Origin: Actinokineospora sp. NBRC 105648 | GTDB taxonomy: Bacteria > Actinomycetota > Actinomycetes > Mycobacteriales > Pseudonocardiaceae | NCBI RefSeq assembly: GCF_030269645.1 | Contig: NZ_BSTR01000001.1 | Coordinates: 301,740-365,739 of the forward strand | Reading direction: 5' to 3' | Length of the DNA: 64,000 nucleotides | Part shown: positions 5,332 to 30,186 of the stretch, one piece after another | Numbering within the stretch: position 1 is the first letter of the stretch | How the letters are laid out: the number at the start of each line of letters is the position of its first letter | Program-made: the position numbers and the translations under genes | Notes under the pieces: model-generated | Database searches by the model: none | What the model saw: only the letters and a program-made list of their open reading frames with translations | What the model was told of the DNA's origin: nothing

Positions 5332-5500
5332 ATGCGCGATTCCGATCGCGTGATCGCCGCTGGGCATCGCCCTGTCGTTGTCCGGCAACGAAAAGCGCCC
5401 GAGCGGGCCCAATCGGCGGTCGGGGTTCACCGGACGTTCGCCGAAGTCGGCCTCGGCGTTACCCATCCTGGGTCAGGGTGGAGCGGGGAGGGGTCGAGAG

Positions 5501-6433: not shown

Positions 6434-7450
6434 GTGCAGTTCCAGCAATTGGTGTCGTTCCTGGCGATCGCCGAGGAGCACAACTTCGGCCGGGCGGCCC
6501 GCAGGCTGCACCTGGCCCAGTCCTCGGTCAGCCTGCAGCTCAAGCGGCTCGAGCGCGAGGTCGGCGTCGAGCTGGTGTCCCGGTCCTCGCACCAGGTCCG
6601 GCTCACCGCGGCGGGCGAGGTGTTCCTCGGCGAGGTGCGCCAGCTGCTCGACCTGGCCGACGACGCGGTCGAGGTGGCCCGCGCGGTGGCGGCCGGGCGC
6701 GCGGGCAGGCTGCGGGTCGGCTTCAACTTCGCCGCCGGGCGCCTGGTGCTCACCCCCGCCCTGGTGCGCCTGCACGCCGAGCACCCCGGACTGGGTGTCG
6801 ACCTGACCGAGCGGCGCAGCGGACCGCAGCTGCGGGCACTGGCCGACGGTGACCTCGACCTCGCCCTGGTCTTCGGCGCCCCGGCCGCGGCGGGCTTCTC
6901 CTCGGTCCCGGTGCGCCGGGTCGACCTGGTGGCGCTGCTCACCGACACGCACCGCTGGGCGGGCCGGGACAAGATCGGCTTCCGCGAGCTGGCCGGTCAA
7001 CCGTGTGTCCTCTTCGGACGTGAGCAGTGCCCGGCGATGTACGACGAGATCCGGGCCGTGGCCCAGCGCACCGGTACCGACCTGGCCGTGGTCGAGGAGA
7101 TCGACGACCAGCTGGCCACCGCGATCGCCGTGCGGGCCAGGCAGGTCATCGGGTTCGCCTCGGCGCCGCGCTGGGACCAGACCGGGCTCGCCGGGCTGGT
7201 CACCGTGCCGATCGTGGACCCGGTGCCCAGCCTGGTGATCCACGCGGTCTGGCGCGGTGACACCGAAACCCTTCCGGTGCGGGCGTTCCTGCGCTGCCTG
7301 GGCCTGCGCGGCGACGGCGATCGCGGCGCCCTATCGACCGTTCACCCGTTGGTCGTTGCCCCGCGGTCCCCGCACGACCCAGGATCGGGGCGGCGCCCCA
7401 GCGCGCCCCGCACCGTCGCCGCAGTCCGGACACCGCGCAGAATGGAGTGA
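6434..7450 (+). CDS. Second LysR-family regulator
   Basis: This 338-residue LysR protein starts at GTG 6434 with CCGGAGG 7 bases upstream. The helix-turn-helix spans residues 1-60 (FGRAARRLHLAQSSVSLQL), followed by an effector domain. A C-terminal arginine/proline-rich tail of about 45 residues beyond the normal LysR length is probably unstructured. It closely resembles the preceding gene, so the pair looks like a tandem duplication that has diverged. The stop overlaps the GTG start of the acyl-CoA ligase, implying joint transcription and control of fatty acid activation. Confidence 0.9.
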   Translation: MQFQQLVSFLAIAEEHNFGRAARRLHLAQSSVSLQLKRLEREVGVELVSRSSHQVRLTAAGEVFLGEVRQLLDLADDAVEVARAVAAGRAGRLRVGFNFAAGRLVLTPALVRLHAEHPGLGVDLTERRSGPQLRALADGDLDLALVFGAPAAAGFSSVPVRRVDLVALLTDTHRWAGRDKIGFRELAGQPCVLFGREQCPAMYDEIRAVAQRTGTDLAVVEEIDDQLATAIAVRARQVIGFASAPRWDQTGLAGLVTVPIVDPVPSLVIHAVWRGDTETLPVRAFLRCLGLRGDGDRGALSTVHPLVVAPRSPHDPGSGRRPSAPRTVAAVRTPRRME

Positions 7451-9179: not shown

Positions 9180-9710
9180 TCAAGCGGCATTCATCCAGCA
9201 CACGTAGTCGAAGTCGACCTTGCCGACCAGGGTGCCCTCGTCGTCGTGCAGCAATGCTTTTCCGGTCATTTCGTATCGCTGCGCGGTGGTGTCCGCCACA
9301 ATGCGCGCGGCGACCTCGGCCTCGACCGTTCCGGTGGCCCGGACGCGGCCCTTCGCCGGGCGCAGGAAACTCACCTTGGACTCGCGCAGCACGAAGCTGC
9401 TCACCTGCGCGATCCGCGTCGCGACGGCCCCGGAGAACGCGCCCGCGCAGGCCACCTCGGCGGCCAGGAACATCGCGCCCGCGTGCACCGTGCCCAGGTG
9501 GTTGCGCATCGTGGGCAGGTCGGCGACCTCGGCGACGGCCTCGGTGCCGCTCAGCGCGGTGACCCGGACGCCGACGTGGTTGTTGAACGGCACCACCGAG
9601 TCGACCATCCGGCGGATCTGCTCGTAGTCGGGCCGCCCACCGGTCACCGCGGTGGCCAGGGCGGCCTGCGCGCGGCCGACTTCATCGGAGAATTTACTCT
9701 TTGGAGGCAT
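9180..9710 (-). CDS. PaaI/DUF4442-like thioesterase
   Basis: The 176-residue hotdog protein has the active-site helix motif LGTVHAGAMFLAAEVA at about residues 72-87 and a KVSFLRPAKGRV strand. This is the layout of PaaI/DUF4442 acyl thioesterases. No Shine-Dalgarno is visible before its ATG, but TAATCT lies 6-7 bases upstream. That would suit a leaderless transcript, common in actinobacteria. It diverges from the core synthase operon across a 195-bp gap that holds likely operators, so the two are probably co-regulated. It could be a stand-alone release or editing enzyme for the synthase. Confidence 0.82.
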   Translation of the reverse strand: MPPKSKFSDEVGRAQAALATAVTGGRPDYEQIRRMVDSVVPFNNHVGVRVTALSGTEAVAEVADLPTMRNHLGTVHAGAMFLAAEVACAGAFSGAVATRIAQVSSFVLRESKVSFLRPAKGRVRATGTVEAEVAARIVADTTAQRYEMTGKALLHDDEGTLVGKVDFDYVCWMNAA

Positions 9711-9905: not shown

Positions 9906-11102
9906 ATGTATGACGCAATCGTGGTCGGCGCTCGGTGCGCGGGCTCGTCGGCCGCCATGCTGCTCGCCCGGCGCGGCTACCGGGTCCTGCTGGTGGACAA
10001 GGTCACCCAGCCCACCGACACCGTCTCCACCCACTACCTGCAGCAGTACGGCCTGGCCAAGCTCGAGCAGTGGGGCCTGCTCGACACCCTGGTCGCCACC
10101 GGCGTCACGCCGATGACCCGGATGACGGTGTCCTACCGCGACTACCTGATCGACGGCTTCGCGGACCCGTTCGAGGGCATCGAGGCGACCTACGCCCCCC
10201 GGCGCACGGTGCTCGACCCGATCCTGCTGGACGCGGCCAAGGCCGCGGGCGCGGAGGTCCGCGAGGGCTACACCGTGCGCGAGCTCATCGTCGAGGACGG
10301 CCGGGTGGTCGGTGTCCGCGGTTCGCGCGGCGCCGAGTCGCCCACCGAGGAGCGCGCCCGGGTCGTCATCGGCGCGGACGGCAGCCAGTCGTTCGTCGGC
10401 AAGGCCGTCGGCGCTGAGATCTACCAGCGCATCCCGGCCGCGTCGTTCATCTACTACACCTACTTCAGCGGCCTCGAGACGCACTTCCACAGCCGGATCG
10501 GCGTCGACCAGCAGGTCGGCGTGTGGCCGACCAGCGACGGGCTCACCCTGATGGCGGTCATGAAGCCGCTGGACCGGTGGAACGAGTTCCGCACCGACGT
10601 CGAGGCCAACTTCCTGCAGATCGTCAAGGACATCGTCCCCGACATCGCCGAGCAGGTCGCCGACACCGGGGAGCGGCAGGAGAAGTTCACCGGCATCCGC
10701 TACCCGGACAACTTCTACCGCCGCTCGCACGGCCCCGGCTGGGCGCTGGTCGGCGACGCCGGCTACCACAAGGACCCGATCACCGGCCAGGGCATCAGCG
10801 ACGCGCTGGTCTACGCCGAGCTGCTCGCCGACCGGGTCGAGCAGGGCCTGTCCGGGCAGCGCCCGCTGGACGAGGCGCTGGCCGACTACGCCGCGGCGCG
10901 CGACGAGCGCACCGGCTCGGCGTTCCAGTTCGCCGCCACCATCGGCGAGCTGCGGCTGCCGCCGCACCTGGACGCGATCTTCAAGGTGCTCAGCGTGCAC
11001 GAGACCTATGCCAAGGACTTCTTCAACGTGATCTCCGGTGCGATGACCGGTGAGCAGTTCTTCCACCCGGACAACGTCGCGAAGATGCTCGGGTCCGCCT
11101 GA
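9906..11102 (+). CDS. FAD-dependent oxidoreductase (geranylgeranyl-reductase/monooxygenase type)
   Basis: The 398-residue flavoprotein starts at ATG 9906 with GGGAG upstream. The N-terminal dinucleotide fold reads VVGARCAGSSAAMLLAR (residues 6-22), and the second FAD motif VGDAGYHKDPITGQGISDA lies at about 283-301. This places it in the group of para-hydroxybenzoate-hydroxylase-like and geranylgeranyl-reductase-like enzymes. Both hydroxylation and double-bond reduction of lipids occur in this group. It heads the core operon, with its stop overlapping the esterase start. The likely role is tailoring or saturating the nascent polyene, but the reaction cannot be read from sequence. Confidence 0.82.
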   Translation: MYDAIVVGARCAGSSAAMLLARRGYRVLLVDKVTQPTDTVSTHYLQQYGLAKLEQWGLLDTLVATGVTPMTRMTVSYRDYLIDGFADPFEGIEATYAPRRTVLDPILLDAAKAAGAEVREGYTVRELIVEDGRVVGVRGSRGAESPTEERARVVIGADGSQSFVGKAVGAEIYQRIPAASFIYYTYFSGLETHFHSRIGVDQQVGVWPTSDGLTLMAVMKPLDRWNEFRTDVEANFLQIVKDIVPDIAEQVADTGERQEKFTGIRYPDNFYRRSHGPGWALVGDAGYHKDPITGQGISDALVYAELLADRVEQGLSGQRPLDEALADYAAARDERTGSAFQFAATIGELRLPPHLDAIFKVLSVHETYAKDFFNVISGAMTGEQFFHPDNVAKMLGSA

Positions 11103-11683
11103 TGGCGATCCGGCTGATGACCATCGGCGACAGCTTCGCCGAGGGCCGCGGCGAGCCCGGCCCGGACGGCGGGTTCCTCGGCTGGGTGCCGCGGCTGGCC
11201 GAGTCGCTGGGGATCGCGCCGCACGAGTACGTGAACCTGGGTGCCTACAACGCCACCACGCAGGACGTCATCGACCACCAGCTGGCCAGGGCGCTCAGCG
11301 CGGACGCCCCGCTCTACGGGGTCACGGTGGGCGGCAACGACCTGGTGCGCGGCTCGTTCGACCAGGACGCCTTCCGCCGCAACCTGCGGCACGTGCTCGG
11401 CGGGCTCAGCCTGCGCGGCGCGCGGGTGTTCACCATCAACTGGCCCGACATCCCCGGCAAGCTCCCCGGCCTGCCGCCCGAGGCGCGCGCCGCGCTGCGG
11501 CTGCGCTTCGCCGAGGCCAACGACTTCATGGCCAAGCTCACCGCCGAGCTGGGCCTGGTCTGCTACGACATGGTCGACACCCCGCTGACCAGGGACCCGG
11601 CCATGTGGGGACCCGACGGCATGCACCCGAGCCCGGCCGGACACCGGGCCATCGCGGCCGGCTTCGCCGAGCTGCTCTCCTGA
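11102..11683 (+). CDS. SGNH/GDSL-family esterase or lipase
   Basis: The 193-residue protein shows the four SGNH blocks: GDSFAEG with the catalytic Ser near residue 11, a glycine in NLGAYN, GGND near 78-81, and DGMHPS near 173-178 with the catalytic Asp and His. No signal peptide is present, so it acts in the cytoplasm. Members hydrolyse acyl esters or thioesters; E. coli TesA is one example. Here it may release the chain from an ACP or transfer it. Its start overlaps the oxidoreductase stop (TGATG). A hairpin at 11700-11730 separates it from the synthase gene. Confidence 0.85.
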   Translation: MAIRLMTIGDSFAEGRGEPGPDGGFLGWVPRLAESLGIAPHEYVNLGAYNATTQDVIDHQLARALSADAPLYGVTVGGNDLVRGSFDQDAFRRNLRHVLGGLSLRGARVFTINWPDIPGKLPGLPPEARAALRLRFAEANDFMAKLTAELGLVCYDMVDTPLTRDPAMWGPDGMHPSPAGHRAIAAGFAELLS

Positions 11684-11699
11684 CGACCTCGCCGAGCGG

Positions 11700-11730
11700 C
11701 CCCCGGTTGTCCACTCCGGACGACCGGGGG
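11700..11730 (+). terminator. Hairpin between esterase and synthase genes
   Basis: Arms 11700-11712 and 11718-11730 pair over 13 bp with one G-T type mismatch and a 5-base loop. It lies within the 98-bp gap of an otherwise overlapping operon. It may act as a partial terminator or RNA-processing site that sets the level of the giant synthase mRNA. Confidence 0.5.
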
Positions 11731-11781
11731 TGTCCGCCCGTGCCCAGCCGCCCCGCGTGGGCGGCCGCAGAAGGGACGCAA

Positions 11782-14700
11782 GTGACTTCCGACCAGCACC
11801 GCACCGCGCACACCCCGATCGCCGTCGTCGGCGTGTCGGGCCTGTTCCCGATGGCGCACGACCACCGCGACTTCTGGCAGAACATCGTCGACGCCGCGGA
11901 CTGCACGCAGGACGTGCCAGCCTCCCGGTGGCGGGTCGAGGACTACTACGACCCCGACCCCGGCGCCCCGGACAAGACCTACTGCACCCGCGGCGGCTTC
12001 GTGCCGGACGTGGCGTTCAGCCCGCTGGAGTGGGGCCTGCCGCCCAACCAGATGGAGGTCACCACGGTCGTGCAGATGCTGAGCCTGGGCGTGGCGCGCG
12101 ACGTGCTGCGCGACGCGGGCGCGGTCGGCTCGGACTGGTACGACCCGCAGCGCACCGGTGTCGTGCTCGGTGTCGCCGGTCCGACCACGCTGTCGCACCC
12201 GTTGGCGGCCCGGCTCTCCACACCGGTCCTGCGCGAGGTTGTCCGCTCGTGTGGACTGTCCGAACAGGACGCTGAGGAGATCGCGGCGCGCTACGTCGAG
12301 GCATTCCCGCCGTGGGAGGAGAACTCCTTCCCCGGCCTGCTGGGCAACGTGATCGCGGGTCGGGTGGCCAACCGGCTCGACCTGGGCGGGATGAACTGCA
12401 CGGTCGACGCCGCCTGCGCGTCGTCGCTGTCCGCAGTGCACATCGCGATCGGCGAGCTGCTCTCCGGCCGCGCCGACATGATGATCACCGGCGGCGCGGA
12501 CACCGAGAACTCGGTGTTCGGCTACCTGTGCTTCAGCAAGACCGGCGCGCTGTCGAAGTCCGGCAAGATCAAGCCGTTCGACGACTCGGCGGACGGGACC
12601 CTGGTCGGCGAGGGCATCGGCATGCTGGCGCTCAAGCGCCTCGCCGACGCCGAGCGCGACGGTGACCGGGTCTACGCGGTGATCCGCGGCGTCGGCGCCT
12701 CCAGCGACGGCCGGTTCAAGAGCATCTACGCGCCGCGGGCCGAGGGCCAGGTCGTCGCGCTGGAGCGCGCCTACGCCGACGCCGACTGCTCACCCGCCTC
12801 GATCGGGCTGTTCGAGGCGCACGCGACCGGCACGCGGGTCGGTGACAAGACCGAGCTCACCGCGCTGAACTCGTTGCTGCGCGACACGACCGACGAGCAG
12901 CGGTTCGCCGCCATCGGCAGCGTGAAGTCGCAGATCGGGCACACCAAGGGCGCCGCGGGCGCGGCGAGCCTGATCAAGCTGGCGCTGGGCCTCTACCACA
13001 AGACACTGCCGCCGACGATCAACATCGAGCGTCCCAACACGACGATCGACTTCGACTCGGCGGCCTTCTACCTCAACACCAGCACCCGGCCGTGGATCAC
13101 CGACCCGCGCCGCCCGCAGCGGCGCGCGGCGGCCTCGGCGATGGGCTTCGGCGGCACCAACTTCCACGTCGTGCTGGAGGAGGCGAGCGCCGACCGCACC
13201 ATCACGCGCACCCTGCACCGCACGGCGCGGGCCTACCTCTGGCACGCCCCGACCCCGGCGGAACTGCTGGCGCTGCTGCGTTCTGGCGCCGAGCCGTCGA
13301 CCGACACCATCCCGGCGGACCACGCGCGAATCGGTTTCGCCGGCTTCGACGACGCGCTGCGCGAGGTGGCGCTGTCGCAGCTCGAGGCGTCCTCCGACGA
13401 CCAGTGGTCGCACCCCTCCGGCGTGTTCTACCGCAGGCGGGCGCTGCCCTCGGTGCGGGTCGGCGCGCTGTTCGCGGGCCAGGGCAGCCAGTACGTGAAC
13501 ATGGGCCGGACGGCGGTGCTGAACAACCCGCTGGTGGGCACGGCCTTCGACGAGGCCAACGCGGTGTTCCTGGGCGCGGACCGGCTGCTGTCGGAGGTGG
13601 TGTTCCCGGCGGCGACGTTCGACGGCGAGACCGACGCCGACCGCGAGCTGGCGTTGCGGCGCACGGAGTTCGCCCAGCCCGCGATCGGCGCGCTCGCGGC
13701 GGGCCAGTTCCGCTTCCTGAGCTCGTTGGGGCTCTCCTGCGAGGGCTTCCTCGGCCACAGCTTCGGTGAGCTGTCCGCGCTGTGGGCGGCGGGTTCGCTG
13801 TCCGATGTGGACTTCTTCCGGCTGGCGCGGGCGCGCGGCCTGGCGATGGCCCCGCCCTCGTCGGACTTCGACGCGGGCGCGATGGTCGCCGTGGACGCCG
13901 ACCGGGCGACGGTGGAGGAGGTCCTGGCGGCCCACCCCGAGGTCGTCGTGTGCAACCACAACGCCCCTGACCAGGTGGTGGTCGGCGGCGCCACGATCGC
14001 GGTGGCCGACGTGGTCGCGGCGTGCAAGGCGCGCGGCCTGACCGCGAAGGTGCTGCCCGTCGCGGCGGCGTTCCACACCTCGCACGTGGGCCACGCGGTA
14101 GAGGCGTTCCGCGCTGAACTGTCCGATGTGGAGATTTCTGCTCCCACTAACCCGGTCTATGCCAACACCTCGGGTGCCTCCTACGGCACCGACGTCGCGG
14201 CCAACCGGTCGGTGCTGGCCGAGCAGCTCCGCAACCCGGTGGAGTTCGTCTCCGCGCTGGAGTCCATGCGCGCCGACGGCTGCACGGTGTTCGTCGAGTT
14301 CGGCCCGCGCAAGGTGCTGACCCAGCTGGCCACCCGGACGCTGGGCGACGCGGTCGTCGCGGTGGCCACGGACCTCGGGTCCAAGGTGGATAGTGACCTG
14401 GCGCTCAAGCGCGCGGCCGTCGAGCTGGCCGTGGTGGGTGCCCCGATCAGCGACATCAACCGCTTCGACGCGCCGCCGGTGGTCCGCGAGACCCCCAAGG
14501 GCATGACGGTGACCCTGACCGGTCGCGACTACGTCCCGGACACCCGGAGCGCCGCGTACGCCACGGCACTCGACGGCACCTACCAGGTGGAGTCGGTGCG
14601 CAAGGCCGCACAGCCTGCGGGTGGCGCGGAAGCGTCTGGCTCACAACAGGTTTCCTCGCCGCAGCGAGAGTCCAGCCCGCTCCCTCAGCCGCAGACCGAA

Positions 14701-17700
14701 TGGCAGGAGCCTGCCGCGCCACACACTGAGCCGCAGACCGAGTGGCAGGAGCCTGCTGCGCCGCACGCTGCCGTGTCGGCTGGACCAGCGGCTTCCGCCG
14801 TCCCGCAGCAGGTGCTGCCCGCGGTCGGTGCGGCCGCGGGCGGCTGGGAGGGGGCATCCCCGTCCGCTGCCGAGGGGGCGGACCTCGCGCTGTCCACCCA
14901 GCTGGCGGAGCGCCCGGCCGAGGTCGGCACGGTCGTCGACGAGCGCGTGGTGGCCGGGTTCGGCGAGGTCGCCGCCCGGCACCTGGAACTGCACACCCGC
15001 TACGTCGAGGGCCAACTCCGCGTCGCCGACGGTCTGGTGTCGGCGCTCCGCTCGGCCCCCGACGGCGGCGCGGGCCTGCACGCGGCGGTCGAGGCGGTCA
15101 CCGACCAGAGCATCGCGATCGGCGAGACGCACGTGCGGGTCAACGAGATCCTGGCGGCCCTCACCGAACTCGAGTTCTCCCCGTCCCGGCTCGCACCCCA
15201 GGACCCCACCACTGCCCGACCGGCCCCGGCCGGTGTCGGCCAGGTTGTCGCGAGCCCGGCCAGTGCCCGACCGGCCCCGGCCACTACCGGCCAGCCTGCT
15301 GCCGGTCAGGTCTCGACCACCCCGACCTCGCTTGGCAGTCCGGCCCCGACAGCCCTCGGCATCGCGGCTCCGACCGCGGACGCCGTGGCTGCCCCTCCCG
15401 CCCCGGCCCAGCAGGCGCTTCCCGCGCAGCGCTCGGCCCCTCCGGTCTCCCCGACACCCACCCACAACCCGGCGGTGGCCGCCACTGCGTCCCCGGCTGC
15501 CCGGGCTGCGGCTCCGGCTGTGGTCGCCGCGGCTCCCAGCGCAGCGGCACCCGCCGCGGACATCGAGGCCGCACTGGTGGCCATCGTGGCGGACAAGACC
15601 GGCTACCCGGTTGAGATGATCGACCCGGGGATGGACCTCGAAGCTGATCTCGGTGTGGACTCGATCAAGCGGGTGCAGATCTTGGGCACGCTTGGTGAGC
15701 GGTTCCCGGAGCTGCCGGCCGTCGGCCCCGAGCAGGTCGCTGAGCTGCGGACGCTCGCCGATGTGGTGGCCTTCATGGGTGCTTCCGCACCCGCCCTGCC
15801 CGCGGCCCCGGTGGCACAGGTTCCCGGCATCGAGGCCGCTTTGATCGAGATCGTGGCCGACAAGACCGGCTACCCGGTCGAGATGATCGACCCGGGCATG
15901 GACCTCGAAGCCGACCTCGGTGTCGACTCGATCAAGCGGGTGCAGATCCTCGGCACCCTGGGTGAGCGCTTCCCCGAACTGCCGGCTGTCGGCCCCGAGC
16001 AGGTCGCTGAGCTGCGGACCCTGGCCGACGTGGTCGCGTTCATGGGTGCGGCCCCCGCTGCGGGTGGGGTGGCCGCCGCGCCCGCGGGCGCTGATGTCCA
16101 GGCTGCGCTGATCGGGATCGTGGCGGACAAGACCGGTTACCCGGTTGAGATGATCGACCCGGGGATGGACCTCGAGGCTGACCTGGGTGTGGACTCGATC
16201 AAGCGGGTGCAGATCCTCGGCACCCTGGGTGAGCGGTTCCCGGAGCTGCCGGCTGTCGGTCCGGAGCAGGTCGCTGAGCTGCGGACCCTGGCCGATGTGG
16301 TCGCTTTCATGGGTGCGGCCCCCTCGGCAGGTCCGGTGGTGGAGGCTTCAGCCGCGCCCGCGGGTGCCGACATCCAGGCTGCCCTGATCGACATCGTCGC
16401 GGACAAGACCGGTTACCCGACCACCATGATCGACCCCGGGATGGACCTCGAGGCCGATCTCGGTGTCGACTCGATCAAGCGGGTGCAGATCCTCGGCACC
16501 CTGGGCGAGCGGTTCCCGGAGCTGCCGGCAGTCGGTCCCGAGCAGATCGCCGAGCTGCGCACCCTCGCCGATGTGGTCGCGTTCATGGGGGTCACCGCCG
16601 AGCCCACCGCCGCCGGCACCACCACCACCACCGCGCACACGGCGCCGGAGGTGCAGACCACGCTCATCGAGATCATCGCGGACAAGACCGGTTACCCCAC
16701 CACGATGATCGACCCCGGGATGGACCTGGAGGCCGACCTCGGCGTCGACTCCATCAAGCGCGTCCAGATCCTCGGCGCCCTCGGTGAGCGGTTCCCGGCG
16801 CTGCCCGCGGTCGGCCCGGAGCAGGTCGCGGACCTGCGCACCCCCGCCGCCGTGGTCGGGTTCCTGACTGGCACCGAGAGCGCCAAGCGCACCGGGAACA
16901 CCGAGAACACCGGGAACACCGAGAGCACCGAGAGCACCGAGAGCACCGGGAACACCGAGAGCACCGCGAGCACCACAGCGGCCGCCGAGCCCGAGATGCG
17001 CCGCCTGCACCTCGAGCTCCGCCGCCTCCCCGCCGTCGACGAGGCCCGCAACCCCTACGCCGACCACCCCGTCGCCGTGGTGAGCCAGGCCGACGCCTAC
17101 GCCGACGCCCTCGAGCAGCGCGGCTGGACCGTCACCCGCCTCACCCGCGCCGACGGGGACCTCGACGCGGCCGAGGCGCACCTGCGGGCCCAGTTGTCCA
17201 CAGTGGACCGGATCGACCTCGTCCTGGTCGGCCACCCCACCGGCGCGACCTGGGACGGCAACACCCGCCTGCTCGCCGAGCACCTCCTGCTCGCCAAGCA
17301 CGCCACCGCCAAGCTGCCCGGGGACACCCGCGCGGGCTTCGTCGCCGTGACCACCCTCGACGGCGCGCTAGGTCACGAGGGCGCCGCCGCCCCCGCCGAC
17401 GCCGTCGCCGGTGGGATCGCCGGGCTGGTCAAGACCCTGCGCCACGAGGTCCCGGGGCTCTTCGCCCGGGCGCTCGACCTCTCGCCGCGGCTGCCCGCCG
17501 GGGCCGCCGTCGACCAGGTGCTCCGCGAGATCGCCGACGCGGCCGCCGAGCCCGTCGAGGTCGGGGTCGACCACGCGGGCAACCGCTGGACCTCGGCGTT
17601 CACCACCCGCCCGGAGATCACCGGGGAGCCGGGCCTGGCCCACGACGACGTCATCGTGGTCACCGGCGGTGCCCGCGGTGTCACCGCCGAGTGCGTGAAA

Positions 17701-19338: not shown

Positions 19339-21572
19339 CCGCCATCCACGACGACCTGCTCGCCTTCGAGGGTCAGGCGTTCGACGGCCTGCCCACCCCA
19401 GCCGCCCAGCCCACCCACCCGGCCACCGACGTGGTCGTGCGCCCGGGGACGCCCGTCGCCGAGGTGACCCCGGAGCCGGTGGTCCCCACCCCGGTGCCGG
19501 GTGACCACGCGGCCCGGGTGGTGGCCCGGCTGCGCGAGAGCATCATCACCGCGCACGCCTCGGCCCTCGCCACCCAGGAGACCATGCAGCGGTGGCAGAT
19601 CGCGGCGCTGACCGGGCAGACCCCGGTCCGCGCCGCCGCCGAGCGCACGACGCCCCGACCGGACGATTCAGCGCCGACCTGGGCCGAAGTCACCCCCGCG
19701 GCCGCGCCCGTCCAGGACAGCGTCGTTCGGCACGGTGCTGTACGGCGCGGTGCTGTACGCCACTACGTGGTGACCGCCGAGCGCACTGACCGGCACCTGT
19801 TGGTCATCGCCGCCACCGAGGTCCCCAGCCCGGCGCAGCGCCGTTACGCCGAGCCCGCCACCACCGAGGGCGCGTTCAAGCCACTCGCCCAGACCACCGC
19901 TGTCCACTTGGGATCCGCCGAGCTCGACCGGCTGCGCGCGGGGGACATCGCGGGGGTGTTCGGCCCCGCCTACGACCAGGACGGTGCCAACCCGCACATC
20001 CGCCTGTTCGCGACCGAGCACGGTGTGCTCAGCGAGGTCACGCGGACCGTGCGCCGCGCGGGTCGCTGGAACCACGGCACCCTGCACGCGCGCTGCCTGC
20101 TGGCCCCCGGCGACCCGGTGGCCGCGATCACCGAGGTCGCCGCCCAGGCCGCGCAGGTGATCGCGGTCAACCTCGGCCTGCACCTGTGCCTGCCGGACGC
20201 CACCTTCGAGGTGCACGGTGGCGAGGTCGAGCTGGTGGGCGCCGCCGAGGGCGAGCTGGCGCTGGCCCTCGAACTGTCCGATGTCGACATGGTGCCGCGG
20301 CCGCGGCTGACCGCCGAGGTCGAGCTGTCCGCGGGCGGCACCGTCGTCGCCCGGGTGCACGGCCTGCGGCTCGAGGTGCGCGAGCGCCCCGGCGTGGCCA
20401 TCGGTCCGGCCGCGGGCGGGGTCGTCCCCGGCTGGTTCGGCAGGCGCAACGCCGACGGGGAACGCGCGCTGCTCAACGAGTTCCACATGATCCACAGCTC
20501 CCGCGGCGACCTGGCCATCACCCTGGGCCCGGAGTTCGCCCGGTGCCTGGGCCGCCGCGCGACCCGGATGCCCAGCGGCGGGCTGCGCCTGTGCGACCGG
20601 GTGATGCGGGTCGACGGCGAGCGGCACAAGCTCGCGAGCGGCAGCGGCGACACCGAGTACGACGCCCACGCCGACTCGTGGTACTTCGCCGAGACCGCGA
20701 ACGCCTCGATGCCGAACGTGATCTACATGGAGACCTCGCTGCAGTCGGCGCTGCTGCTGGGCTACTTCCTCGGCGCCACGCTGACCGACCCGGACGACGA
20801 CTTCAGCCTGCGCAACCTCGACGGCTCGGCCACCGTGCTGCGCGAGGTCGACCTGCGCGGCAAGACGATCCGCCAGCACTCGGAGCTGATCAACACCAGT
20901 GTCCTGAGCGGAGCGGTGCTGCAGAGCTTCAGCTACGAGCTCTCCGTCGACGGCGAACCGTTCTACCGCGGCGAGTCGCTGTTCGGGTTCTTCAACGAGA
21001 AGGCGCTGGCCAACCAGACCGGCCTCGACGGCGGCGCCTACGTGCCCACCTGGCTCGACCAGCACCCGACCGCCACCCGGCGGATCGAGGTGGGCGAGCG
21101 CGGCCCGAACGGCCCGGCCCGCTCCACCGCGCACCTGCACCTGCTCGACGAGGTGCACGTGGTCGACGGCGGCGGCGAGCACGGCCTGGGCTACCTGCGG
21201 GCGGTCCGGCCGATCAGCGCGGACGACTGGTACTTCCGCCGACACTTCCACCTCGACCCGGTCATGCCCGGCTCGCTCGGGGTGGAGGCCGTCTTGCAGG
21301 CCATGCAGGAGTGGCTGGTGGACACCGGCCTGGCCGACGAGCTGGTCGCGCCCGAGTTCGTGCTGCCCACCGGCCTGGCGCTGTCCTGGCGCTACCGCGG
21401 CCAGATCCTGGCCACCGACGGCGAGATGACCCTGGAGGTGCACATCAAGCGGGTCGAGCGCGGTGACCAGCGGGTGCGCGTGGTCGGCGACGCCAGCGTG
21501 TGGAAGCCGGGGATGCGGATCTACCAGCTCGACGACGTCGCGGTGGAGTGTCGCGGGGTGGGTGCCAAGTGA
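19335..21572 (+). CDS. PfaC-like dehydratase didomain lacking KS-CLF
   Basis: The 745-residue protein overlaps the synthase stop (ATGA). About 150 N-terminal residues are low-complexity. Then come FabA/PfaC-like hotdog domains. The first (about 390-520) holds TEYDAHADSWYF and YMETSLQSALL but no catalytic His, as in the structural half of PfaC dehydratases. The final one has HFHLDPVMPGSLGVEA with His637 and Glu650 in the FabA active-site positions. FabA-type domains dehydrate and can isomerise the double bond, which is how Pfa systems keep cis double bonds. Normal PfaC proteins begin with a ketosynthase and chain-length factor; both are absent here. It must work in trans with the PfaA-like protein. 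Confidence 0.9.
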   Translation: MTAIHDDLLAFEGQAFDGLPTPAAQPTHPATDVVVRPGTPVAEVTPEPVVPTPVPGDHAARVVARLRESIITAHASALATQETMQRWQIAALTGQTPVRAAAERTTPRPDDSAPTWAEVTPAAAPVQDSVVRHGAVRRGAVRHYVVTAERTDRHLLVIAATEVPSPAQRRYAEPATTEGAFKPLAQTTAVHLGSAELDRLRAGDIAGVFGPAYDQDGANPHIRLFATEHGVLSEVTRTVRRAGRWNHGTLHARCLLAPGDPVAAITEVAAQAAQVIAVNLGLHLCLPDATFEVHGGEVELVGAAEGELALALELSDVDMVPRPRLTAEVELSAGGTVVARVHGLRLEVRERPGVAIGPAAGGVVPGWFGRRNADGERALLNEFHMIHSSRGDLAITLGPEFARCLGRRATRMPSGGLRLCDRVMRVDGERHKLASGSGDTEYDAHADSWYFAETANASMPNVIYMETSLQSALLLGYFLGATLTDPDDDFSLRNLDGSATVLREVDLRGKTIRQHSELINTSVLSGAVLQSFSYELSVDGEPFYRGESLFGFFNEKALANQTGLDGGAYVPTWLDQHPTATRRIEVGERGPNGPARSTAHLHLLDEVHVVDGGGEHGLGYLRAVRPISADDWYFRRHFHLDPVMPGSLGVEAVLQAMQEWLVDTGLADELVAPEFVLPTGLALSWRYRGQILATDGEMTLEVHIKRVERGDQRVRVVGDASVWKPGMRIYQLDDVAVECRGVGAK

Positions 21573-23128
21573 CCGCGATCGCGAACGGGCCCGCGCGCAC
21601 GGCCGCCGAGGTCTACACGGTGCTCGCCGACCTCGAACGGCCCTGCTACATCGTCGACAACGGCGGTGTGGCCGCGACCAACGACGAGGGCGTCGCCCGC
21701 GCGGGTGGCACGGTGCTCGCCGCCGTCCCGCCGATGGGGCCAGACCGCCTGGGCGCGCCCGACTTCACCCGTGACCACGGCGTGCGGCACGCCTACATGG
21801 CGGGCGCGATGGCCAACGGCATCGCCTCGGCCCGGATGGTCGGCGCGATGGCCCAGGCGGGCTACCTCGCCTCCTACGGCGCCGCCTCCACCGTCCCGGC
21901 CAAGGTGGACGAGGCGCTCGCCGAGATCACCAGGACCGCGCAGGGCGCGCCGTTCGCCTGCAACCTGATCCACAGCCCGAGCGAGCTCGCGATGGAGCGC
22001 TCCACTGTGGACCTGTGCCTGCGGCACCGGGTGCGCTGCGTGGAGGCGTCGGCCTTCCTCGACCTGACACCGCAGATCGTGCGGTACCGCGCGGTCGGCC
22101 TGCGGCGCGGCGCGAACGGTGAGGTGGTCGCCGACAACCGGGTGATCGCCAAGGTGTCGCGCGCCGAGGTGGCCGAGCGGTTCATCCGCCCGGCGCCGGA
22201 GTCGATCCTGCGCGGTCTGGTGGCCGCCGGGGACATCACCGCCGAGCAGGCCGAGCTGGCCCGGTCGGCGCCGGTCGCCGACGACATCACCGCCGAGGCC
22301 GACTCCGGCGGCCACACCGACCGCAGGCCGCTGCCCGTGCTGCTGCCGGACCTGTTGCGGCTGCGCGACATGCTGCAGGCCGAGTTGCACTACCGCAAGC
22401 CGGTCCGGATCGGTGCCGCGGGCGGGATCGGCACGCCCGCGGCGGCGTTCGCCGCCTACGCGATGGGCGCGGCGTACGTGGTCACCGGCTCGATCAACCA
22501 GGCGGCCGTGGAGTCCGGCCAGTCGCCCGCGGTCAAGCGGTTGCTGGCCACCGCGGGCGTCGCGGACTGCGAGATGGCGCCGTCGTCGGACATGTTCGAG
22601 CTGGGCGTGGACGTGCAGATCCTCAAGCGCGGCACGATGTTCCCCAGCCGCGCCAAGAAGCTCTACGAGCTCTACCGCCTGCACGAGGGCATCGACGCGA
22701 TCCCGGCCGCCACCCGCGCCGAGCTGGAGCAGAAGGTGTTCCGGCGCCCGCTGGAGGACGTCTGGACCGACACCGTGGCCTACTTCGCCGAGCGCGACCC
22801 GGAGCAGGTCGAGCGGGCGCGCGGCAACGAGAAGCGGCGGATGGCCCTCATCTTCCGCTGGTACCTGGGCCTGTCCTCGCGCTGGAGCATGTCCGGCGAC
22901 GCGGACCGGGCGCAGGACTACCAGATCTGGTGCGGTCCGGCGATGGGCGCGTTCAACACCTGGGCGCACGGCACGTTCCTGGCCCCGGTGGAGAACCGGC
23001 ACGTCGCCACCCTCGCCGACCAGGTGCTGCGCGGCGCCGCGTTCGCCGCCCGGGTCTCGGCCCTGCGGTTCGCCGGTGTGCGGCTGCCCGCGGCCTGCGC
23101 CACCTACCGACCCGCGCCCACCGCCTAG
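21569..23128 (+). CDS. PfaD-family trans-acting enoyl reductase
   Basis: The 519-residue protein starts at GTG 21569 inside the previous stop. It is a TIM-barrel flavoenzyme of the PfaD/2-nitropropane dioxygenase group. [20 protein letters not shown] (about 292-311) supplies the FMN-phosphate site and [14 protein letters not shown] follows. The C-terminal [18 protein letters not shown] segment is typical of PfaD. It reduces enoyl intermediates on the synthase ACPs in selected cycles, deciding which double bonds survive. Length is normal for PfaD. It links this cluster firmly with PUFA-type rather than type I PKS systems. Confidence 0.95.
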
Positions 23129-23139
23129 GAGGGATTGCC

Positions 23140-24834
23140 ATGAGCGACACCAAGTCCTGGCTGCTCTGCCCCGACTGCCGGGAGATGATCTACGGTCGCC
23201 GGTTCGCCCGCGCGGCCAAGGTCTGCCCGCTGTGCGGCCACCACGCCGCGCTGAACGCGCCGGAGCGGCTGGCGCACCTGCTCGACGAGCGCTCCATGCG
23301 GCTGCTGGACTTCGCCGTCGCGGACGCCGACCCGCTGTCCTTCGTGGACTCCGTGCCCTACCTGGACCGGTTGCGCAAGGCCCGGTCGCAGACCGGGCTG
23401 GACGAGGCCGTGGTCTGCGCCCGGGGCGCGATCGGCGGCCACCCAGTGATCGTCGCGGTGATGGACTTCCGCTTCCTGGGCGGCAGCCTGGGCGCGGCGG
23501 TGGGCGAGGCCATCACCCTGGCCGCCGAGACCGCGCTGCGCGAGCGCACCCCGCTGCTGCTGGTGACCGCCTCCGGCGGCGCGCGGATGCAGGAGGGGGT
23601 GATCTCGCTGATGCAGATGGCCAAGACCAGCCAGGCCCTCGGGCAGCTCGACGAGGCGGGCATCCTCACCCTGACCCTGGTCACCGACCCGACCTTCGGC
23701 GGGGTCGCGGCCTCGTTCGCCACGCTCAGCGACATCATCGTCGCCGAGCCGGGCGCCCGGCTCGGGTTCGCCGGGCCGCGGGTGATCGAGCAGACCATCC
23801 GCCAGTCGCTCCCGCCCGGCCTGCAGACCGCGGAGTTCCTGCTGGAGCACGGGATCGTCGACGTGCTCAGCCCGCGCGACCAGCTGCGCCCGGTGCTGGC
23901 CAAGCTGCTGGCCGCGGCCACCCGCCGCCCGTCGGGCGAGCGGGTGCCCGCCGAGCCGGGGCCCGCGCTGGTCACCGACCACACCGAGCTGGCCGAGCGG
24001 CACCCGTGGGAGGTCGTGCGCACCGCCCGCACCCTCGGTCGACCGACCACAGTGGACTACATCAACCTGCTCACCCAGGGGTTCGTCGAGCTGCACGGCG
24101 ACCGCCGGGCCGCCGACTGCAAGGCGATCGTCGGCGGACTGGGTTACCTCGACGACATCCCGGTGGTCGTGGTCGGCACCCAGAAGGGCCGCACCGCCGC
24201 CGAGCTGACCGAGCGCAACTACGGGATGCCCAGCCCGGCCGGGTACCGCAAGTCCGCGCGGCTCATGCGGTTGGCGGCCAAGCTGGGCCTGCCGGTGGTC
24301 ACCCTGATCGACACCGCGGGTGCCTTCCCCGGTGTCGAGGCGGAGATGGACGGTCAGGCCGTCGCCATCGCGGAGAACCTGCGGCTGATGGCCGGTCTGC
24401 CGGTGCCCTCGGTCGCCGTCGTCACCGGCGAGGGCGGCAGCGGCGGCGCGCTGGCGCTGGCGGTGGCCAACCGGGTGCTGATGTGCGCCAACGCGGTGTA
24501 CTCGGTGATCAGCCCCGAGGGGTGCGCGGCCATCCTGTGGAAGGACCCGGGCGCGGCCCCCAAGGCCGCCGCCGCGCTGCGCGTCGACGCCCGTTACCTG
24601 CTGTCCCAGGGGATCGTCGACGGTGTGGTGCCCGAGCCGGAGGGTGGCGCGCACACCGACCACGGCTTCGCCGCCGCGGCCCTGCGCGAGGCGCTGACCA
24701 GCACCCTGCGCTCGCTGATGCCGCTGGACGCGATGAACCTCGTCCCGCAGCGGCACGCCCGGTTCCGCCGGTTCGGCACCCCGGCCCCGGACCTGATCGA
24801 CCAGGAGATCGCCGCCGAGAGGGAGAGCGCCTGA
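23140..24834 (+). CDS. Fused acetyl-CoA carboxylase carboxyltransferase AccD-AccA
   Basis: The 564-residue protein starts at ATG 23140 with AGGAGG overlapping the PfaD stop. The first half is AccD: a zinc ribbon with Cys10, 13, 29 and 32, then the carboxyltransferase beta fold ([14 protein letters not shown]). The second half is Acc[32 protein letters not shown] and [10 protein letters not shown]. Together they transfer CO2 from carboxybiotin to acetyl-CoA. Most actinobacterial housekeeping carboxylases are of the AccA3/AccD type instead, so this bacterial-standard set looks dedicated to malonyl-CoA supply for the synthase. It is followed directly by accB and accC (ATGA overlaps). Confidence 0.93.
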
Positions 24835-25361
24835 TGACCACCACGACCGACACCACTGGTACCGCCGGCACGTCCTCCCCGGTGGACGTGCTGGAGGCAC
24901 TGCGGGACAACGTGATCGCGTTGTGCGCGCAGGCCCCCCGGCCGCCGAGCTGGGTCAAGGTGACCGCGGGCGAGGTCGGTGTGGAGATCTCCTTCGCCGA
25001 CGTCGCCGTGGCCATCGCGGGCGCTCCGGTCCAGGCCCCGGTCGCCGCACCGGTGCCGGCCCTGGCGCCGCGACCGGTCGAGCGCGACCCGGAGCCCGCC
25101 GCGGCGGTCGAGGACCTGCGGCACGTCGGGTCGCCGACCGTCGGCGTGTTCTACCGCTCGCCCGAGCCCGGTGCCGACCCGTTCGTCGCCGAGGGCGCCA
25201 CCGTGGCCCCCGGGCAGCAGGTGGGCATCGTCGAGGCGATGAAGCTGATGATCCCGGTCGAGGCCGACCGCGCGGGCCGGGTCGTGGCGCTGCTGGTCGC
25301 CGACGGCACCCCGGTCGAGTACGGCGAGCCGCTCATCTCCTACGTCCCGGAGACCGCCTGA
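24834..25361 (+). CDS. accB: Biotin carboxyl carrier protein AccB
   Basis: The 175-residue BCCP has an N-terminal helical domain with a Thr-rich lead, an Ala/Pro-rich linker (about 60-90) and a C-terminal biotinyl domain. Its EAMKLM motif puts biotin on Lys137. PTVGVFYRSPEPGADPF is the usual start of the biotinyl domain. It carries carboxybiotin between the biotin carboxylase encoded next and the AccDA subunit. It overlaps both neighbours by ATGA, which suggests balanced expression. Confidence 0.95.
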   Translation: MTTTTDTTGTAGTSSPVDVLEALRDNVIALCAQAPRPPSWVKVTAGEVGVEISFADVAVAIAGAPVQAPVAAPVPALAPRPVERDPEPAAAVEDLRHVGSPTVGVFYRSPEPGADPFVAEGATVAPGQQVGIVEAMKLMIPVEADRAGRVVALLVADGTPVEYGEPLISYVPETA

Positions 25362-26719
25362 TGTTCACCACCGTGCTCATCGCCAACCGCGGTGAGATCG
25401 CGCTGCGGGTCGCCCGCACCTGCCGGGAGCTGGGGGTGCGCACGGTCGCGGTGTACTCCACCGCCGACCGCGACTCGGCGGTCGTCCGGTTCGCCGACGA
25501 GTCTGTCCACATCGGACCGCCGCCGTCGCGGGCCAGCTACCTGCACATCCCGGCGATCATCGAGGCGGCCCGGCGCACCGGCGCCGAGGCGATCCACCCC
25601 GGGTACGGCTTCCTCTCGGAGAACCCGGACTTCGCCGAGGTGTGCGAGGACGAGGGCATCGTCTTCGTCGGCCCGCCCGCCTCGGTCATGCAGAAGCTCG
25701 GTGACAAGGCGGTGGCCCGGGCGCTGATGGTCGAGGCGGGCCTGCCGCTGCTGCCGGGCAGCACCGAGGCCATCGACACCGTCACCGAGGCGCAGGCCCT
25801 GGCCGACGACATCGGCTACCCGGTGATCATCAAGGCCGCGGCGGGCGGCGGCGGGCGCGGCATGCGGATCGTCCGCTCGGGCGAGGAGTTCGCGCGCGCC
25901 TACCGCGAGACGCGGCTCGACGCCCAGGCGGTCTTCAACGACGGCCGCGTCTACGTCGAGCGGTACCTGGAATCCGCGCGGCACGTGGAGATCCAGGTGC
26001 TCGTCGACCGCTACCGCAACGCTGTCCACTTGGGAGCGCGCGACTGCTCCGTGCAGCGGCGGCACCAGAAGCTGGTGGAGGAGTCGCCGCCGCCCGGGTT
26101 GCCGGACACACTGATCGCCGAAATGGGTGCCGCCGCCGTGCGCGCGTCCCTGGCCGTGGGCTACGTCGGCGCGGGCACGTTCGAGTTCCTCGTGGACACC
26201 GAGAACCGGTACTACTTCATGGAGGTCAACTGCCGGCTGCAGGTCGAGCACCCGGTGACCGAGATGGTCACCCGGCTCGACCTGGTGGCCGAGCAGCTGC
26301 GGGTGGCCGCCGGGGAACCGCTCGCGCTCACCCAGGCCGACGTCGTGCTCGGCGGGCACGCCCTGGAGTGCCGGATCAACGCCGAGGACCCGACCCGGGG
26401 CTTCGCGCCCGCCCCGGCGACGGTGACCGAGTTCGGTGCCCCCGGCGGCCCGTTCGTCCGGGTGGACACCCACCTCTACAGCGGCTACAAGATCCCCTCG
26501 GCCTACGACTCGCTGCTGGCCAAGGTGGTCGTGTGGGGCCCGGACCGGGCGGTGGCCATCGCGCGGATGCACGCGGCGCTGGGGGAGCTGACCGTGCGCG
26601 GCCCGGGTGTGGCCACCACGGCGGACTTCCTGCGGGAGGTCCTCGACAACCCGTTGTTCCGCGAGGGCAAGCACGACACGTCGCTGGTGGGCGACATGCT
26701 CTTCGGCGGTGCCCGGTGA
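25361..26719 (+). CDS. accC: Biotin carboxylase AccC
   Basis: The 452-residue ATP-grasp enzyme carboxylates BCCP-biotin. It opens with VLIANRGEIALRVARTCREL. The glycine-rich ATP loop AAAGGGGRGMRIV lies near 162-174, the EVNCRLQVEHPVTE catalytic block near 288-301 and the C-terminal ECRINAEDP near 341. Length and order match stand-alone AccC. With AccDA and AccB it forms a complete acetyl-CoA carboxylase inside the lipid operon. The start ATG overlaps the accB stop and the end overlaps the next GTG. Confidence 0.95.
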   Translation: MFTTVLIANRGEIALRVARTCRELGVRTVAVYSTADRDSAVVRFADESVHIGPPPSRASYLHIPAIIEAARRTGAEAIHPGYGFLSENPDFAEVCEDEGIVFVGPPASVMQKLGDKAVARALMVEAGLPLLPGSTEAIDTVTEAQALADDIGYPVIIKAAAGGGGRGMRIVRSGEEFARAYRETRLDAQAVFNDGRVYVERYLESARHVEIQVLVDRYRNAVHLGARDCSVQRRHQKLVEESPPPGLPDTLIAEMGAAAVRASLAVGYVGAGTFEFLVDTENRYYFMEVNCRLQVEHPVTEMVTRLDLVAEQLRVAAGEPLALTQADVVLGGHALECRINAEDPTRGFAPAPATVTEFGAPGGPFVRVDTHLYSGYKIPSAYDSLLAKVVVWGPDRAVAIARMHAALGELTVRGPGVATTADFLREVLDNPLFREGKHDTSLVGDMLFGGAR

Positions 26720-27615
26720 TCCCGGTGACGGTTGCCTGCCGGACCGCGGTGGCCGACGGCGTCGTAGCGCTGGACCTGGTCGGCCCGGACCTGCCCGCGT
26801 GGTCGCCGGGCGCGCACGTCGACGTGGTCCTGCGCCCGGACGTGGTCCGCCAGTACTCCCTCTGCGGCGACCCGGGTGACCTGTCCCGCTACCGCATCGC
26901 GGTCCTGGACGAACCCGCGGGCCGGGGCGGCTCCCGGCTGGTCCACGAACTGTCCGAAGGGGACAATCTGACGATCGCGCCGCCGCGCAACAACTTCGAG
27001 CTGGTCGACGCCCCGCGCCACCTGTTCATCGCGGGCGGCATCGGCATCACCCCGCTGATCCCGATGCTGGCGACGTCCACCGACTGGCGCTTGGTCTACG
27101 GCGGCCGCACCCGCTCCGCCATGGCCTTCGCCGAGGACCTGGTGGCCCGCCACGGCGACCGGGTCGCGCTGTGCCCGCAGGACGAGGTCGGCCTGATCGA
27201 CCTGGCCACCGAACTCGGCGCCCTGCAACCGAACACCGCCGTCTACTGCTGCGGCCCGGAAAGCCTGCTGGCGGCGGTGGAACAGCTGTGCCCGTCCGGC
27301 TCCCTGCACGTGGAACGGTTCAGCCCCAAGCCGACAACCGGTGCCCTCCTCCCGTTCGAGGTGGAACTCGCCTCGACGGGCCAGGTGTTCACGATCCCCG
27401 CCGACCGGACCATCCTGGAGGTCTTCGAACAACAGGGTGTCCCGGTGTCCTCCTCCTGCGAGGAAGGCACCTGCGGCACCTGCGAGACCGCGGTCCTCGA
27501 CGGCACCCCCGACCACCGCGATTCGGTGCTGTCCCCGGAGGAGCAGGCCGAGGGCAAGTGCCTGATGATCTGCGTCTCCCGCTCGCACACCCCCCGACTG
27601 GTCCTGGACGTGTGA
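26716..27615 (+). CDS. PDR/VanB-type FMN-[2Fe-2S] oxidoreductase
   Basis: The 299-residue protein starts at GTG 26716 in the accC stop. The flavin domain has RQYSLCGDP (about 39-47). The NAD domain follows with AGGIGITPLIPML (about 104-116). A C-terminal plant-type [2Fe-2S] domain has CEEGTCGTC and a last cysteine in LMIC. This is the phthalate dioxygenase reductase order, FMN-NADH-[2Fe-2S]. Such reductases feed oxygenases. No Rieske oxygenase lies nearby, so the best partner in the cluster is the diiron desaturase (1365-2204), which is inference. It is the last gene of the core operon, 18 bp from the convergent AlkB gene. Confidence 0.88.
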   Translation: MIPVTVACRTAVADGVVALDLVGPDLPAWSPGAHVDVVLRPDVVRQYSLCGDPGDLSRYRIAVLDEPAGRGGSRLVHELSEGDNLTIAPPRNNFELVDAPRHLFIAGGIGITPLIPMLATSTDWRLVYGGRTRSAMAFAEDLVARHGDRVALCPQDEVGLIDLATELGALQPNTAVYCCGPESLLAAVEQLCPSGSLHVERFSPKPTTGALLPFEVELASTGQVFTIPADRTILEVFEQQGVPVSSSCEEGTCGTCETAVLDGTPDHRDSVLSPEEQAEGKCLMICVSRSHTPRLVLDV

Positions 27616-29515: not shown

Positions 29516-29516
29516 G

Positions 29517-30071: not shown

Positions 30072-30186
30072 GGTCAGGAGAACACCGCCCTCCGCGTCGG
30101 CGTTGCAGGCGTTTCCCAGCGCGCGCGGCTGGGTACTTCGCGCCCACCGCGAGTAGAGGGTAGCCGGCGAGTGGAGGGACCAGACT

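Follow-up and report, generated by a model that had tools for sequence, protein, structure and literature searches.

The way in which Pfa synthases, the enzymes of the polyunsaturated fatty acid (PUFA) synthase type, set chain length and double-bond pattern is a question of interest. The roles of the ketosynthase (KS)-chain-length factor (CLF) pair, the acyltransferase (AT) and both FabA-type dehydratases (DHs) have so far been studied by cutting or swapping these parts. The KS of PfaA was reported to accept C2, C4, C6, C10 and C16-C18 chains and the KS-CLF C10 and C20 chains, and an enzyme expressed in E. coli was reported to stop producing PUFA when its first FabA-type dehydratase, DH(FabA)-1, was lost (PMC9702510). 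The KS-CLF has been assigned the final elongation after C18:4, and PfaB the role of terminal acyltransferase (PMC12895367). Two described types of Pfa synthase, Type Q (R. erythropolis PR4) and Type M (Frankia, Actinosynnema, Renibacterium and S. avermitilis), are given as having no known product (Shulse and Allen 2011, PMC3098273). A 2014 survey of Nocardia reported a type-I polyketide synthase (PKS) cluster #11, designated 'pfaA', of composition KS/AT/ACP/ACP/KR (ACP, acyl carrier protein; KR, ketoreductase), for which PUFAs were predicted, and stated that no PUFAs had been found in Nocardia (PMC4035055). Loss of the CLF or of the KS-CLF pair has been recorded for cyanobacterial and Ottowia Pfa-like clusters, and a Streptomyces griseus-type cluster was described with a pfaB-pfaC fusion of two dehydratase/isomerases (DH/I) (PMC13291983). 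The operon analyzed here, which bears on this question, lies at positions 9906-27615 of a stretch of 64,000 nucleotides (the window) forming part of contig C1 of the genome of Actinokineospora sp. NBRC 105648 (8.43 Mb in 149 contigs). It is rather likely to encode a reduced, iterative PUFA-type (Pfa) secondary-lipid synthase, the product of which would be released by an SGNH hydrolase.

The operon is a closely packed set of plus-strand genes for an FAD-dependent oxidoreductase, an SGNH hydrolase, PfaA, a short PfaC, PfaD, the acetyl-CoA carboxylase proteins AccDA, AccB and AccC, and a reductase (Table 1). PfaA scored 1894.5 bits against the PfaA model TIGR02813 (cut-off 1010.1) and PfaD 638.3 bits against the PfaD model TIGR02814 (cut-off 449.25), which places both among the Pfa/PUFA-type synthases. 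Pfam recognizes a KS, a malonyl-acyltransferase (MAT), five PP-binding stretches and a KR in PfaA, and the five ACPs carry the motif LGVDSIKR. The match to PKS_DH_N is sub-threshold (21.2 bits, cut-off 27), and the call of a PKS-type DH rests on its His and Asp. The domain order KS-MAT-5xACP-KR-DH, proposed in an initial annotation made from the sequence alone, agrees with these matches. The start of PfaA is probably the GTG behind AGAAGGGA; the longest open reading frame would give 2762 aa. As judged from sequence, the synthase consists of one KS, one PKS-type DH, one intact FabA-fold DH (DH2) and PfaD.

PfaC shows no KS or CLF in a Pfam scan of its 745 residues, unlike classical PUFA synthases with their KS-CLF didomain. 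Its sole Pfam match is to the FabA-like family PF07977 (residues 599-731), as in FabA-type dehydratases. No PfaB-type AT, present in classical PUFA synthases, was found among the scanned operon proteins, and the PfaC frame gave no AT match. The genome holds 68 matches to the KS model. On contig C1 the stretch from C1:245467 to the PfaA KS is free of them, and so is the part to the right of the PfaA KS; a KS-CLF gene just outside the window, named beforehand as the observation that would overturn the annotation, was thus not found. The genome search returned one PfaC-like gene and one PfaD gene, those of the window. The two phosphopantetheinyl transferase (PPTase) domain matches in the genome are both on other contigs. 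Neither the operon nor its surroundings gave a KS-CLF, a PfaB-type AT or a PPTase. The initial annotation had described a PUFA-type synthase in an actinomycete without KS-CLF subunit and PfaB-type AT; the family scores, the KS scan and the recurrence of the layout in many genera bear this out.

This recurrence became apparent from a survey in which contigs of GTDB genomes were scanned with a four-row PfaC alignment and the best 80 of 281 relatives were used. Together with three plasmid loci this gave 83 loci; the end of PfaA is visible in 73, while ten begin too near a contig end. In 59 of the 73 loci the dehydratase core follows the end of PfaA at a distance of 234-1733 bp, and in the other 14 at 5290-6501 bp. 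Of 200 sampled genomes from the family to which the window belongs, 41 match the PfaC alignment at 1e-30, and 18 near-full-profile PfaC matches lie in frames below 1200 aa (nine), above 2200 aa (eight) or of 1788 aa (one). Trees were built by quick search (LG+G4, branch support by SH-aLRT only) and rooted on four distant rows, three with KS and CLF in PfaC and one, L110, with AT alone; the program gave a long-branch warning for rows including L013, L108, L118 and L119. In the KS-AT tree (62 rows) as well as in the dehydratase tree (96 rows), all KS-CLF-less loci except L013 form one clade, of 47 and 67 rows, respectively, each with an SH-aLRT of 100. The clade contains Actinokineospora, Amycolatopsis, Nocardia, Rhodococcus and Frankia members, and the layout is conserved over several families. 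The closest named relatives are from Actinokineospora, with 85 % identity in the KS-AT part and 80-81 % in the PfaC dehydratase part. An assembly or frameshift artefact was ruled out, since the reading frame of the short PfaC is uninterrupted and its layout is found again in other genomes; truncation does not explain it because this layout forms one well-supported clade.

In all 68 rows of the KS-CLF-less layout, the PfaC frame is without a KS, CLF or AT match. PfaA is visible upstream in 63 of these; the other five (L043, L048, L060, L065 and L072) start near a contig end, and their layout was assigned by tree. The KS Cys-His-His and MAT Ser/His residues are kept in all 47 clade rows and all 15 other rows, and the KR Tyr and the PKS-type DH His/Asp in all 63 rows of the KS-CLF-less layout with a KR-DH match. 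The exact ACP motif occurs 0-5 times per locus among the 47 clade loci, with five in the window, L020 and L023; divergence of the motif may account for the low counts. Among the 28 rows of the other class, 25 match both KS and CLF within the PfaC frame, L064, L109 and L119 weakly so, and L097 is cut by a contig end. L108 (G047 C18:490000-509900) has an AT, a weak CLF-like match (75 bits) and the DH1 His, and no KS; it is a possible intermediate stage. L110 (G163 C1:3970500-3990400) has the order PfaD-PfaA-(AT-DH), no KS or CLF, and a Gln where the DH1 His would be; it stands well apart from the clade and represents another independent KS-CLF loss. L013, outside the clade, lacks the KS-CLF and the AT. 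The clade, L013 and L108 stand on one side of a branch of the KS-AT tree with a support of 74, which is not decisive. Loss of the KS-CLF thus occurred more than once. It took place in this clade and in L110, and also in L013 and L108, either together with the clade or separately.

The first FabA-fold dehydratase of PfaC (DH1) is affected as well. PfaC of Streptomyces globosus is built with two similar units spaced by about 400 residues. The window PfaC aligns to it from residue 175, the match beginning partway through the latter half of the first unit; residues 360-740 of the window PfaC give a further alignment, at 24 % identity, to the first unit of S. globosus. The active-site loop of DH1 is deleted in the window PfaC, while a classical PUFA synthase has two active dehydratases. 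In 67 of the 68 KS-CLF-less rows the first half of the DH1 unit was not found ahead of the core, and other matches to this half in these rows represent the paralogous second unit; the PfaC frame of Frankia sp. CIT1 (L031) has kept a weak and diverged piece of it, 27 % identical over 115 residues. In the other class it precedes the core in 28 of 28 rows, the weakest being L110 (52 bits). None of the 68 KS-CLF-less rows has the DH1 His. L108 has it, and so have 26 of the other 27 rows (all but L110), among them all 25 rows in which PfaC shows KS and CLF. The DH2 His and Glu are present in 96 of 96 rows, including the 68 of the KS-CLF-less layout. A count by regular expression gave both DH motifs in 23 of 27 rows (exceptions L109, L110, L118 and L119) and the second motif alone in 65 of 68 (exceptions: one without a match, two matching at another offset). 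The twice-fetched loci L049/L111, L040/L112 and L074/L103 are included in these dehydratase counts. PfaC thus appears to have lost, beyond the KS-CLF and the AT, most or all of the first DH1 half and its catalytic loop. The initial annotation, which had PfaC starting directly in its dehydratase part, was right in that KS and CLF are absent, but had not seen that the first DH1 half and the catalytic loop are gone too.

These residues bear on what the synthase may produce. One alternative is a true PUFA synthase, in which the PfaA KS elongates up to C18-C20, an ordinary cis polyunsaturated product is made and the lost parts are dispensable. The catalytic residues of PfaA are intact, its KS takes C16 and C18 too in the published work (PMC9702510), and the Nocardia survey predicted polyunsaturated fatty acids (PMC4035055). 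With the DH1 His lost in 68 of 68 rows, and with the reviewed enzyme reported to make no PUFA without DH(FabA)-1 (PMC9702510), this is nevertheless unlikely. Another alternative, rather doubtful, is a reduced synthase in which partial and full reduction alternate, so that trans double bonds are left and CH=CH-CH2-CH2 units are repeated, as proposed for dioxanopeptin tails. DxpE of dioxanopeptin and MgpF of megapolipeptin were reported to have a degenerate DH1 and a DH2 with a preserved active site, His/Glu in DxpE, and the double bonds of dioxanopeptin were assigned as trans (PMC12964715); the window likewise combines a deleted DH1 loop with a His/Glu DH2. However, His/Glu does not discriminate, since it is found in all 96 DH2 rows including those with an intact DH1, and the likeness to DxpE and MgpF is drawn from their published description. 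A third alternative, a functionless decayed remnant of a full Pfa operon, might be suggested by the loss of KS, CLF, AT and DH1 activity and by the weak, diverged first-half DH1 stretch retained in the Frankia locus L031. Conservation of the other catalytic residues over 47 to 68 rows, the overlapping genes and the constant partner genes make it barely credible.

For the reading of a reduced, iterative synthase with release by the SGNH hydrolase, the partner genes are informative. They were searched with tblastn at 1e-8 in those 37 of the 47 clade loci (two duplicates included) that have 2.5 kb or more upstream of PfaA, and in 14 others, of which 11 have a KS-CLF and three do not (L013, L108 and L110). 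The SGNH gene lies directly upstream of PfaA in 37 of 37 testable clade loci and in none of the 14 others, and the FAD gene lies upstream in 36 of 37 against none of 14. The SGNH esterase and FAD oxidoreductase that the initial annotation had placed beside the synthase are thus near-constant partners in the clade. The AMP ligase gene was found in 28 of the 31 clade loci having at least 2.9 kb upstream. Downstream sequence of 5.5 kb is available for 55 clade loci; in 46 of them PfaD is near PfaC, and the remaining nine make up one subgroup. Loss of PfaD in this Nocardia/Amycolatopsis subgroup (L023-L030 and L032; none downstream) was considered and rejected: PfaD was found in all six genomes searched, and three further genomes also carry it. 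In four fetched subgroup loci PfaD lies upstream, ahead of the FAD gene, in one of them together with carboxylase genes. In Amycolatopsis orientalis (L029:11751-14151 and L116) a P450 and an MFS (major facilitator superfamily) transporter gene follow the short PfaC, with PfaD and carboxylase genes upstream.

In the proposed scheme the local acetyl-CoA carboxylase would provide malonyl-CoA, which the MAT would load onto the ACPs, and the PfaA KS would perform every condensation. Cycles closing with the PKS-type DH and PfaD would give saturated units, and cycles closing with DH2 would retain a double bond. As KS-CLF and DH1 are lacking, elongation would end earlier, and double bonds would be fewer or differently placed than in eicosapentaenoic acid (EPA) and docosahexaenoic acid (DHA). 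The SGNH hydrolase, the named candidate for release, would take over from the lost AT in setting the product free; the FadD-like ligase may then re-activate the acid, and the FAD enzyme may oxidize or reduce it. All of these steps go beyond gene content and are put forward as a model. The KS-CLF, AT and DH1 are absent and therefore, if their published roles are transferable, no EPA- or DHA-like acid is expected; the lipid is probably shorter or less unsaturated than omega-3 products. It is also conceivable, although on balance slightly doubtful, that these loci form a distinct class which lost the KS-CLF, AT and DH1 activity, recruited the SGNH and FAD enzymes for release and tailoring, lets the single KS fix chain length, and makes an unseen shorter, sparsely or trans-unsaturated, oxidized lipid common to Nocardia, Frankia, Rhodococcus and Amycolatopsis relatives. 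With the KS-CLF, the AT and DH1 activity all missing and the rest kept in several genera, the clade offers a natural test of the roles of these three parts.

Several observations weigh against the proposed scheme. Of the 55 clade loci with 5.5 kb or more of downstream sequence, just 30 have AccDA there, compared with 3 of 16 loci of the other class. The assignment of the SGNH hydrolase as releasing enzyme is suggested by position and co-occurrence. L013, which is without KS-CLF and AT, has no SGNH match, and neither have L108 and L110, which are without KS-CLF and keep the AT; the SGNH gene therefore marks this clade and not KS-CLF loss as such. The loss of DH1 is read from alignments. Chain length is not fixed by these data, as the published KS specificities would fit a stop near C10-C12 as well as one near C18. 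Finally, type II-like KS pairs encoded elsewhere in the genome could act in trans.

These are three adjacent KS pairs, KS/CLF-like by position, at C10:123980-125970, C41:58213-60185 and C89:2105-4077. In view of these pairs, the proposal that the single KS of PfaA does all elongation, also made in the initial annotation, is one that we infer. Elongation might instead be finished in trans by a type II PKS KS-CLF or by a fatty acid synthase KS, which is favoured by these pairs and by an AccA-type carboxyltransferase about 10 kb from the C41 pair, but is made quite improbable by conservation of the layout over several families. This carboxyltransferase is a second strong AccA-type match of the genome; a third, on C42, has an internal stop. 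An AccA-type copy beside KS genes would suit a dedicated malonyl-CoA supply for polyketide synthesis. Two more two-gene iterative-type PKS loci were observed on C22 and C38 (L014 and L015), each of which encodes a second KS protein beside a KS-AT-ACP-KR protein with about 40 % identity to PfaA; an SGNH paralogue was observed on C33. A very large modular PKS with dozens of KS matches occupies C1:100205-245467 and ends about 56 kb left of the window.

The gene content and positions of the operon given in the initial annotation hold in Pfam and TIGR scans and in the sequence (Table 1). Of the eight junctions, six (FAD/SGNH, PfaA/PfaC, PfaC/PfaD, AccDA/AccB, AccB/AccC and AccC/reductase) have a stop codon that overlaps the next start codon, in line with the overlapping PfaA-PfaC-PfaD arrangement already noticed there, and gaps are found at SGNH/PfaA and PfaD/AccDA. 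The annotation had left unmentioned the genes of the complete acetyl-CoA carboxylase, which fill about 3.6 kb of its interval. Of the three hotdog enzymes it had named, the two that were examined were both confirmed. A LysR gene adjoins the cluster also in L011 and L111-L117. The best NCBIfam matches of the AMP ligase are FadD-type ligases, all those shown being under their cut-offs. The FAD oxidoreductase scored 99.3 bits with TIGR02032, below the cut-off of 158.8, and its PDB matches include 3e1t. It was considered as a halogenase, the two nearest PDB chains being so named, and rejected: the halogenase motif WxWxIP is not in its sequence. Next to the operon, on the minus strand at 27634-30995, an AlkB-like 2-oxoglutarate (2OG) oxygenase, an Ada/Ogt-type alkyltransferase and a sigma factor are encoded, probably an unrelated DNA-alkylation repair set.

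Table 1 Genes of the operon and its upstream flank, with positions in the window
Feature	Position	Strand	Remarks
Second hotdog gene, thioesterase-like	4744-5235	-	
LysR regulator 1	5378..6409	+	Pfam HTH_1 and LysR_substrate; longest open reading frame, true start probably later
LysR regulator 2	6434..7450	+	Tandem pair also in L117
AMP-binding acyl ligase, FadD-like	7447..9117	+	Pfam AMP-binding, 266.6 bits
Hotdog protein (DUF4442/4HBT), thioesterase-like	9180..9710	-	Homologues near a number of clade loci
FAD-dependent oxidoreductase, geranylgeranyl-reductase/class A monooxygenase type	9906..11102	+	Pfam FAD_binding_3
SGNH hydrolase	11102..11683	+	Pfam Lipase_GDSL_2; GDS, GGND and DGMHPSPAGH blocks; proposed releasing enzyme
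PfaA, KS-MAT-5xACP-KR-DH (PKS type)	11782..19338	+	2518 aa, from GTG 11782
Short PfaC	19335..21572	+	745 aa; DH1 remnant (catalytic loop deleted) and FabA-fold DH2 with H637 and E651
PfaD enoyl reductase	21569..23128	+	TIGR02814; GTG start overlaps PfaC stop
AccDA, carboxyltransferase beta-alpha fusion of acetyl-CoA carboxylase	23140..24834	+	
AccB, biotin carboxyl carrier protein	24834..25361	+	Pfam Biotin_lipoyl
AccC, biotin carboxylase	25361..26719	+	TIGR00514, 632.3 bits (cut-off 626.5)
Flavin/2Fe-2S ferredoxin reductase-like protein	26716..27615	+	Pfam Fer2; homologues near a number of clade loci

Parts of this picture were already known, a Nocardia PfaA having been in print by 2014 and KS-CLF loss being recorded elsewhere. 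The combined loss of KS-CLF, AT and DH1, the clade and its partner genes are without a description found in the literature, which was covered largely at the level of titles and the beginnings of abstracts and gave no description of a KS-CLF-less actinobacterial gene set. The lipid likewise stays without match to a known product, as the initial annotation had stated. Several described systems can be placed relative to the clade. The genome of R. qingshengii (L055), a species close to R. erythropolis, has a single PfaA, which falls in this clade; judging by R. qingshengii, Type Q is probably of this kind. Frankia sp. QA3 has a locus of this clade and another PfaD-PfaA locus (L122, 3833000-3852900), and by its text Type M could be either; no PfaC/KS-CLF match was seen in the approximately 10 kb behind PfaA of L122. 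The carriers of Nocardia cluster #11 include N. brasiliensis, printed as IFM 10487 and presumably IFM 10847 (PMC4035055). The genome of N. brasiliensis IFM 10847, the source of L066, has one PfaA, in this clade. The Nocardia counterpart was filed as 'polyunsaturated fatty acid' by the survey, without chemical proof, and the available part of that account is silent on KS-CLF, DH1 and the SGNH and FAD genes (PMC4035055).

The nearest KS-CLF-bearing relatives are those of Streptomyces globosus (L012) and Lentzea (L074), with KS-AT and PfaD 57-61 % identical to those of the window. Their Pfa synthases (KS-CLF-AT-DH-DH), unlike that of the window, have the KS-CLF, the AT and the DH1 His, and within the fetched flanks of L012 and of the Lentzea locus (as L103) no SGNH, FAD or AMP ligase match was found. 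Heterocyst glycolipid Type F has hglC with KS-CLF-AT and no PfaC dehydratases (PMC3098273); the window has no KS-CLF-AT and does have the dehydratase, and is not of this type. The available parts of PMC9582728, PMC5550956 and PMC7413640 gave no match to this cluster, and the paper on rhodopyran did not lead further. The cyanobacterial and Ottowia clusters are PKS-nonribosomal peptide synthetase (NRPS) hybrids with pfaB-pfaC fusions, whereas no NRPS gene was noticed beside the window operon. The dioxanopeptin and megapolipeptin synthases share the degenerate DH1 and intact DH2 with the window, and differ in that they are reported to feed an NRPS, the dioxanopeptin lipid having 22 carbons ahead of the PKS step (PMC12964715).

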